Source: Bacteroidota bacterium (lineage in GTDB: Bacteria > Bacteroidota > Bacteroidia > 2-12-FULL-35-15). Taken from it: DNA of 64,000 nt. The stretch lies in the NCBI GenBank assembly GCA_005772895.1, contig SXIH01000037.1:1-64000 (forward strand), given 5' to 3'. Positions 38,629-40,053 of the stretch are shown piece after piece. Within the stretch, counting starts at the first letter, position 1, and each line of letters starts with the position of its first letter. The notes below the pieces were generated by a model. It searched no databases, was not told where the DNA came from, and saw nothing but the letters and a program-made list of their open reading frames with translations. A program made the position numbers and the translations under genes.

Positions 38629-40053
38629 ATGATGAAGTTTGATAAAGTAGAAATAGTTGAAAATAAAATTGAGTATGAGAATTTACTGTTTTACACAGTG
38701 GATGCAAATTCCAGTTTAAAGATTGAACACCTCATGGGATATGATGCTCTGATTGTTGATGCACGTGATCACGATTTTGCAAGATACATCATTAAAAAAA
38801 TCAGAACCCACTACAATCCTGAATTTTATTTAAAACCGATATTTTTAATCAATTATAAAGAATCAAAAGACCCATTTCTGAATTACCTGCATGATGGATT
38901 AGTGTATTCGTATGATCAGATCAAAGAAATTGCCGAAGTTGTAAAACAAATATTCTTTAAAACTACTCAGCTAGATTATCAGCTGATTCCATCTTTCGAA
39001 GCGCAAACAATGAAAAAGGTTCTCAATTATATGTATACCCGGGAACTCAAAACATTAAAACCTTATGTCGACTTAAACTCTATTATAGGATATACATTCC
39101 CTGAAATTTCTGTTCATTTTGATGATGCTGAAGAAGCACAGGTTTTGGAAATTTTTGACTGGGCAGAAAGAGAAGGATTGATCTGGCCTGATTTTCATGA
39201 GAGAATTTACCTTTGTAACCAATGCAGCAGCGGTTTTTTAAGTTACAGAGAAGTGTGTCCGCACTGCAATTCTTCCAATTCTAAATCCGAAGATCTGGTG
39301 CATCATTTTCCATGTGCGTTTATCGGACCAATTTCTGATTTTAAAAACCCGATTGATAATACTTTAACTTGTCCGAAATGTAACAAAGGGCTTCGTCACA
39401 TTGGTGTGGATTACGATAAGCCGTCCATTATCCATCACTGCAATAGTTGTGATAATAATTTTCAGGATTTCTTTGTGAAAGCAAAATGTATTTCCTGCTC
39501 TCAGGATATTGAGGTACAATATTTAATTCCAAAATCAATTAACGTTTATAAATTAACTAAAAAGGGCAGAGCAGCGGCTACTAACGGTTTCTTATCGTCA
39601 GGACAAGAGATTGAAGATATTTTTGGAACAATCAACATGGCAACATTTAAAGTTATGCTGCATTATGAATTGGAAAGAATAAAAGCCAGTCCATCACAAA
39701 AAACAAGTATAGCTTTAATAAATCTGGAGAACATATTTGAATTGTATAATAAGATTGGAAAGAAAGCAGAAAAAACCTTGTTGGAAGATTTAGTGAATAT
39801 GATCCGGGAAAACATTAAACCTGCTGATTTTATTGCTTTTGAAAACTCTTCAACTTTGTATTTAGGATTAATGAATACCGATTCGATGCAAGCAGAACAG
39901 CAACTGATGCATTTGAGTATTTTAATTGAAAAAGTTATAAAAACAAACTTTAATGGCTTTGATGTAAAAGTACTTCATAGAGGAAAAATTTTACATACTC
40001 ATGCAAAAGCAGAGCTTCAGTTACAAGAATTAACAAAAGACCTGTTCGACTAA
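38629..40053 (+). CDS. Signalling protein: receiver-like domain + TackOD1-like zinc-ribbon domain + degenerate GGDEF-like domain
   Basis: YDALIVDARDHDFARYIIKKI; CNQCSSGF...VCPHCNSSN...VHHFPCAFIGPISDF...LTCPKCNKGLRHIGVDYDK...HHCNSCDNNF; TSIALINLENIFELYNKIG...FIAFENSSTLYLGLMN (GGDEF motif absent). Confidence 0.72.
   Translation: MMKFDKVEIVENKIEYENLLFYTVDANSSLKIEHLMGYDALIVDARDHDFARYIIKKIRTHYNPEFYLKPIFLINYKESKDPFLNYLHDGLVYSYDQIKEIAEVVKQIFFKTTQLDYQLIPSFEAQTMKKVLNYMYTRELKTLKPYVDLNSIIGYTFPEISVHFDDAEEAQVLEIFDWAEREGLIWPDFHERIYLCNQCSSGFLSYREVCPHCNSSNSKSEDLVHHFPCAFIGPISDFKNPIDNTLTCPKCNKGLRHIGVDYDKPSIIHHCNSCDNNFQDFFVKAKCISCSQDIEVQYLIPKSINVYKLTKKGRAAATNGFLSSGQEIEDIFGTINMATFKVMLHYELERIKASPSQKTSIALINLENIFELYNKIGKKAEKTLLEDLVNMIRENIKPADFIAFENSSTLYLGLMNTDSMQAEQQLMHLSILIEKVIKTNFNGFDVKVLHRGKILHTHAKAELQLQELTKDLFD

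Follow-up and report, generated by a model that had tools for sequence, protein, structure and literature searches.

Results of our analysis of the 64,000-nt stretch of Bacteroidota DNA considered here (the window) indicate that the gene at 38629-40053, which encodes a TackOD1 protein with a catalytically dead GGDEF-fold domain at its C-terminus, is part of a four-gene cassette, and that this cassette is the real unit of the locus. It comprises a TolC exporter with a fused GH18-like barrel, a HlyD adaptor, the TackOD1 protein, and a processive GT2. The TackOD1 protein is probably a subunit on the cytosolic side of a synthase-dependent exopolysaccharide machine, serving its regulation or assembly, and would act by contacts with other proteins and without c-di-GMP. 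Since TackOD1 was named in 2018, no function has been known for the domain; now that it proves to be linked in bacteria, almost without exception, to a single clade of polysaccharide synthases, a role for it can be tested. The genes of the cassette and its upstream neighbor are as follows:

34346-35296, + strand: small upstream GT2, undecaprenyl-phosphate glycosyltransferase-like, found beside the cassette in the window's genus only
35422-37521, + strand: TolC-type outer-membrane exporter (N-terminal ~450 aa), also open from a TTG at 35410
36811-37473, + strand: C-terminal 8-stranded TIM barrel, GH18-like, fused to the exporter (AlphaFold model)
37534-38616, + strand: HlyD-type periplasmic adaptor with an N-terminal membrane anchor (Pfam HlyD_3, 1.2e-5; EmrA-type subfamily match)
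38629-40053, + strand: TackOD1 protein, 474 aa, ATG start
40053-41366, + strand: processive membrane GT2 (DxD, QRLRW), its start overlapping the TackOD1 stop by 1 base

The reverse strand at 38629-40053 is full of stops and offers no competing frame, and the overlap of the TackOD1 and GT2 genes reads TAATG. The exporter portion of the first cassette gene matches Pfam OEP in 17 of 30 homologues (best 2e-11; 4.5e-4 for the window protein), and its model resembles TolC (Foldseek E 1.3e-11). The likeness of the fused barrel to GH18 enzymes is visible only by profile and structure: Foldseek relates it to GH18 chitinases and SleL (E ~1e-4), Pfam GH18 is found in 3/30 homologues (best 5.4e-6), and a single-sequence PDB search with the barrel gave no match. 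The acid pair D559/E561 in its HLDVEPH motif is invariant. A fusion of exporter and hydrolase is unusual, and this one is kept across Bacteroidota, in a Nitrospirota MAG, and in a Thermodesulfobacteriota MAG. Convergent to the cassette, and with no sign of linkage to it, lies a gene encoding a 1012-aa propeller-type sensor histidine kinase (42560-45598, - strand).

Among 108 distinct TackOD1 proteins with room downstream, counted with shared ancestry ignored, a GT2 gene adjoins the TackOD1 gene in 104 (in 49 the two overlap by 1 or 4 bp), a HlyD gene is nearby in 98, and an exporter gene in 89. The four proteins without an adjoining GT2 are one archaeal and three from Thermodesulfobacteriota, one of these near a contig end. 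In the GT2 tree, the TackOD1-linked enzymes form one clade (support 100/99), apart from PgaC/IcaA and BgsA/BcsA. Judged by this adjacency, the proposal of the earlier note that the protein gates a neighboring synthase is probable. Relatives of the protein are encoded at at least 584 loci in GTDB species, and the cassette is found in Bacteroidota, Thermodesulfobacteriota, a Nitrospirota MAG, and gamma- and alphaproteobacterial plasmids. It is a widespread, little-described gene set, probably for exopolysaccharide.

Two known synthases invite comparison. The window GT2 is nearest in fold to PgaC/IcaA, the relevant component of the PgaCD system for PNAG, and the BgsBA system for mixed-linkage glucan of Sinorhizobium also combines a GT2 with a HlyD-type adaptor. 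Neither system has been reported with TackOD1, and the TackOD1-linked GT2s fall outside both in the tree. The assignment of the window GT2 as a PNAG synthase was rejected: it scores 179 bits with the PgaC/IcaA model (NCBIfam TIGR03937), below the curated cut-off of 422, and lies outside the PgaC/IcaA clade. A BgsA-type mixed-linkage glucan synthase was rejected as well, as the BgsB/BgsA-like pair on pSymB, which was identified by position and family match in an unannotated record, groups with BcsA in the tree, well away from the window GT2.

Within the TackOD1 protein, the following parts can be distinguished:

38665-38964, + strand: N-terminal alpha/beta domain (aa 13-112), receiver-like at most
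39001-39555, + strand: TackOD1 domain (aa 125-309)
39214-39498, + strand: 12-ligand zinc cluster, five CxxC and one HxxC (aa 196-290), following the published pattern (PMC5847659)
39619-40050, + strand: catalytically dead GGDEF-fold domain (aa 331-474), from profile, alignment, AlphaFold, and Foldseek
39817-39828, + strand: I-site remnant K-P-A-D (aa 397-400), RxxD in c-di-GMP-using relatives
39844-39858, + strand: A-site remnant NSSTL replacing GG(D/E)EF (aa 406-410), from alignment

The TackOD1 domain, which the earlier note had recognized from its cysteines, is matched by PF18551 with 172 bits against a gathering cut-off of 32 (E 1.3e-50). The pattern described there holds, but the four CxxC-type pairs counted are in fact five CxxC and one HxxC (196/199, 210/213, 226H/229, 248/251, 271/274, and 287/290). 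The 11 Cys of the window protein, encoded by the single TackOD1 gene of its genome, are exactly the published count, so that domain and pattern are common to it and the described TackOD1 proteins (PMC5847659). Archaeal TackOD1 proteins are stand-alone or of the REC-TackOD1 type and were described without such a cassette (PMC5847659); unlike them, the window protein ends in a dead GGDEF domain and is paired with a GT2. TackOD1 was defined as an output domain of response regulators, which in one form is accompanied by a wHTH, and its cysteines are similar to those of double zinc ribbons (Galperin et al. 2018; PMC5847659); this would agree with a transcriptional regulator of the cassette whose zinc ribbons bind nucleic acid. 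Such a function is very improbable, given that no HTH is found in the family by Pfam, that the gene is internal to the cassette and overlaps the GT2 frame, and that characterized neighbors of this type act post-translationally.

The C-terminus has a GGDEF fold, as had been expected. A single-sequence phmmer comparison with the GcbC structure 5euh gave E 0.003, the family profile matched the diguanylate cyclases 6zxm (2.5e-8) and 3ign (3.4e-8) in the PDB, and Foldseek superimposed the AlphaFold model of the protein (mean pLDDT 89.7) on the GGDEF domain of GcbC (5euh; E 2e-8, TM 0.75). The domain also scores as Pfam GGDEF in 8/30 members from other lineages (best 1.4e-10), and therefore its descent is settled. 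In the residue-by-residue alignment to cyclases, R-F-GGEEF aligns over F-E-NSSTL (aa 404-410), the metal-binding Asp position is taken by N365 (and E367), and the positions of the guanine-binding Asn and Asp by Y373 and K382. Judged from these residues, the window C-terminus cannot be a cyclase, because GG(D/E)EF reads NSSTL and the metal and guanine residues are gone. The earlier doubt that it is a diguanylate cyclase is thereby upheld; the motif remnant given as ENSST has to be shifted by one residue, to NSSTL. The description of the loss for this protein was correct and incomplete, since according to the family alignment it is a trait of the whole family, not private to the window protein: GG(D/E)E occurs in 0/109 family C-termini, with AGDEF in the relative L140 as the sole near-match. 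A single decayed protein is thus ruled out, all members being without the GGDEF motif. The L140 locus (5476-6777) lies on an IMG/VR "viral" contig, which is probably host DNA, and has the arrangement TackOD1-GT2-HlyD and a C-terminus with RxxD in addition to AGDEF.

Comparison of substitution rates indicates that the C-terminal domain is under purifying selection and still has some role, because dN is low (0.05-0.27) and dS is saturated; among the Bacteroidota members, L050 no longer has the domain. The zinc body is the best-conserved portion of the protein family, every one of its 12 ligands being conserved in at least 105 of 111 homologues. This conservation, the tight coupling of the genes, and the retention of the GGDEF fold although the c-di-GMP toolkit was not found would also agree with a pure scaffold that receives no signal, the zinc ribbons and dead GGDEF domain holding the GT2/adaptor complex together in a PgaD- or BcsQ-like manner. 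We regard a pure scaffold as unlikely, as it leaves unexplained the true receivers fused to the protein in relatives and the intact I-sites in c-di-GMP users.

The alignment at the I-site gives K397-D400-H428 in the window protein in place of RxxD plus a downstream Arg, the first Arg being replaced by Lys and the second by His. The triad R397/D400/R-or-K428 is present in 13/19 non-Bacteroidota vs. 4/90 Bacteroidota-type proteins (shared ancestry ignored), and RxxD alone in 14/19 and 32/90, respectively, with Asp400 nearly invariant. Counted by genome, RxxD is found in 10/10 c-di-GMP-using carriers vs. 5/23 others (Fisher p 3e-5, ignoring shared ancestry). All ten non-Bacteroidota carrier genomes examined, some carrier genomes being MAGs, encode GGDEF proteins, while in Bacteroidota carriers GGDEF exceeds the cut-off in 2/39 and is not found in 37/39, EAL is found in 1/24, and PilZ in 0/24. 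In one of the MAGs (G400), GGDEF and EAL occur together in one ORF of contig C175, which may be contamination. In the window genome, which is 93% complete, the search for GGDEF, EAL, and PilZ gave none of the three. An early census recorded no diguanylate cyclases in four Bacteroidetes (PMC1183210). On this gene content, the window organism seems not to make c-di-GMP, and c-di-GMP is probably not a ligand of the window protein, because the I-site is eroded and the genome is without GGDEF, EAL, and PilZ. The family can be viewed as a natural experiment, in which a dead GGDEF module keeps its c-di-GMP site where the carriers have c-di-GMP enzymes and loses it elsewhere, with the fold retained.

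The textbook example of such a module in synthase regulation is PelD, in which a dead GGDEF domain controls a polysaccharide synthase through c-di-GMP bound at RxxD and a second Arg (PMC8461298, PMC7112168), and whose I-site triad is kept in c-di-GMP-using TackOD1 relatives. The window protein differs from PelD in that it has no GAF by Pfam, a zinc-ribbon body instead, and an eroded I-site, and its synthase is a GT2, whereas that of Pel is the GT4 PelF. The precedents of PelD and MxdA, together with the RxxD of many relatives and the nearly invariant Asp400, would speak for a working PelD-like receptor also here, with c-di-GMP binding at the I-site switching the synthase on. The K-P-A-D sequence, the His at the second Arg position, and the toolkit missing from the window genome and almost missing from other Bacteroidota carriers make this quite improbable. 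Streptococci, which are without c-di-GMP, dropped the GGDEF domain of PelD (PMC7112168), whereas the family of the window protein keeps the fold although its Bacteroidota lineage seems to be without c-di-GMP. As a tentative possibility, a c-di-GMP-receptor subunit of a polysaccharide synthase may have entered, or persisted in, a phylum that is almost devoid of c-di-GMP, where its I-site eroded and its fold remained selected; the signal by which it gates a TackOD1-GT2-HlyD-TolC/GH18 export machine, so far undescribed in Bacteroidota, may now come from a different ligand or from a receiver-like partner.

A diadenylate cyclase is encoded by the window genome and by 17/22 other carriers, and the 12 ligands of the Cys cluster are conserved; hence a protein that responds to a different nucleotide, for instance c-di-AMP, or to free zinc or redox state through this cluster, and gates the GT2 accordingly, could be envisaged. 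We give it a low probability, for c-di-AMP cannot be the ligand of the whole family, because five carriers are without diadenylate cyclase, and the ligand pattern of the cluster fits structural ribbons. For the ligand-binding role considered previously for the GGDEF-like domain, c-di-GMP is an unlikely ligand here; c-di-AMP is still conceivable in this organism, whose genome encodes the synthase for it.

The N-terminal part has an alpha/beta fold in the AlphaFold model, and its Asp-Gly pair D89-G90 is invariant across 30 aligned N-domains. Its earlier description as receiver-like could not be established. The profile match to the response regulator 2qxy is weak (E 0.004, level with designed TIM barrels), Pfam Response_reg is not found in the window protein, and hhalign of the N-domain with true receivers of the TackOD1-protein family gave no match (probability 0.2%). 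A receiver at the N-terminus is therefore unproven, the phosphoacceptor, T/S, and Lys positions not being kept. True receiver domains are fused to the same protein in 8/30 relatives, some of them beside kinase and Hpt genes, and in the Bacteroidota family f25 the N-domain is encoded by a separate gene of ~110 aa beside a TackOD1 protein with a true receiver. We treat the N-terminal domain as a putative input module.

The closest characterized system, compared by gene order and published domain content, is probably Mxd of Shewanella oneidensis. The mxdABCD genes, an operon for exopolysaccharide and biofilm formation, encode a cytosolic degenerate-GGDEF protein (PMC3409153), a type-2 glycosyltransferase, and an efflux-like protein (PMC3691769), so that, as in the window, genes for a degenerate GGDEF protein, a GT2, and an efflux or adaptor protein lie in one cluster; the TackOD1 cassettes of Plesiomonas and Photobacterium have the same gene order as Mxd. 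The window cassette differs in its exporter-barrel fusion, in having no mxdD in the same place, and in its genome, where no c-di-GMP toolkit could be detected. A plasmid search with a gammaproteobacterial homologue returned no Shewanella MxdA. MxdA binds c-di-GMP (PMC11395469) and contacts the receiver CheY3 (PMC7666153), and by analogy the likeness suggests that the family may take its input from a receiver, either fused to the protein or separate, and additionally from a cyclic dinucleotide in organisms that have one. If MxdA is a TackOD1 protein, an already studied biofilm regulator of Shewanella would explain the whole family.

For the regulatory or assembly subunit that we favor, the following course of events can be proposed. 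The GT2 would polymerize sugar across the inner membrane. Export of the polymer would then proceed through HlyD and the TolC-type channel, whose GH18-like barrel may trim the product. We infer that the TackOD1 protein, translated just before the GT2 from an overlapping frame, docks via its zinc-ribbon body on the GT2/HlyD complex from the cytosolic side, where synthase activity would be set according to the N-terminal input domain and the dead GGDEF domain. A PelD/MxdA-like c-di-GMP receptor is the probable origin of the GGDEF fold; in this Bacteroidota lineage, which seems to be without c-di-GMP, the arginines of the inhibitory site would have been lost and the fold would now serve dimerization or partner binding, or the binding of another ligand.

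As to the polymer, one family of relatives has a gene for a TviB-like UDP-HexNAc dehydrogenase (UDP-GlcNAc 6-dehydrogenase) inside the cassette (L039, 4256-5623; L041, 8719-10083, - strand; L043, 6077-7444), a hint that in those relatives it can carry uronic acids, possibly N-acetyl-uronic ones. The cassette of L041 also contains a gene for a 654-aa lipoprotein-like protein with DUF4114 (10277-12238, - strand). In a Sinorhizobium medicae plasmid (L174, 5839-8430), GT2 and HlyD genes are followed by a broken TackOD1 remnant. Finally, L039 and L040 (G203, contig 116) are two TackOD1 cassettes of different subtype that lie ~14 kb apart.
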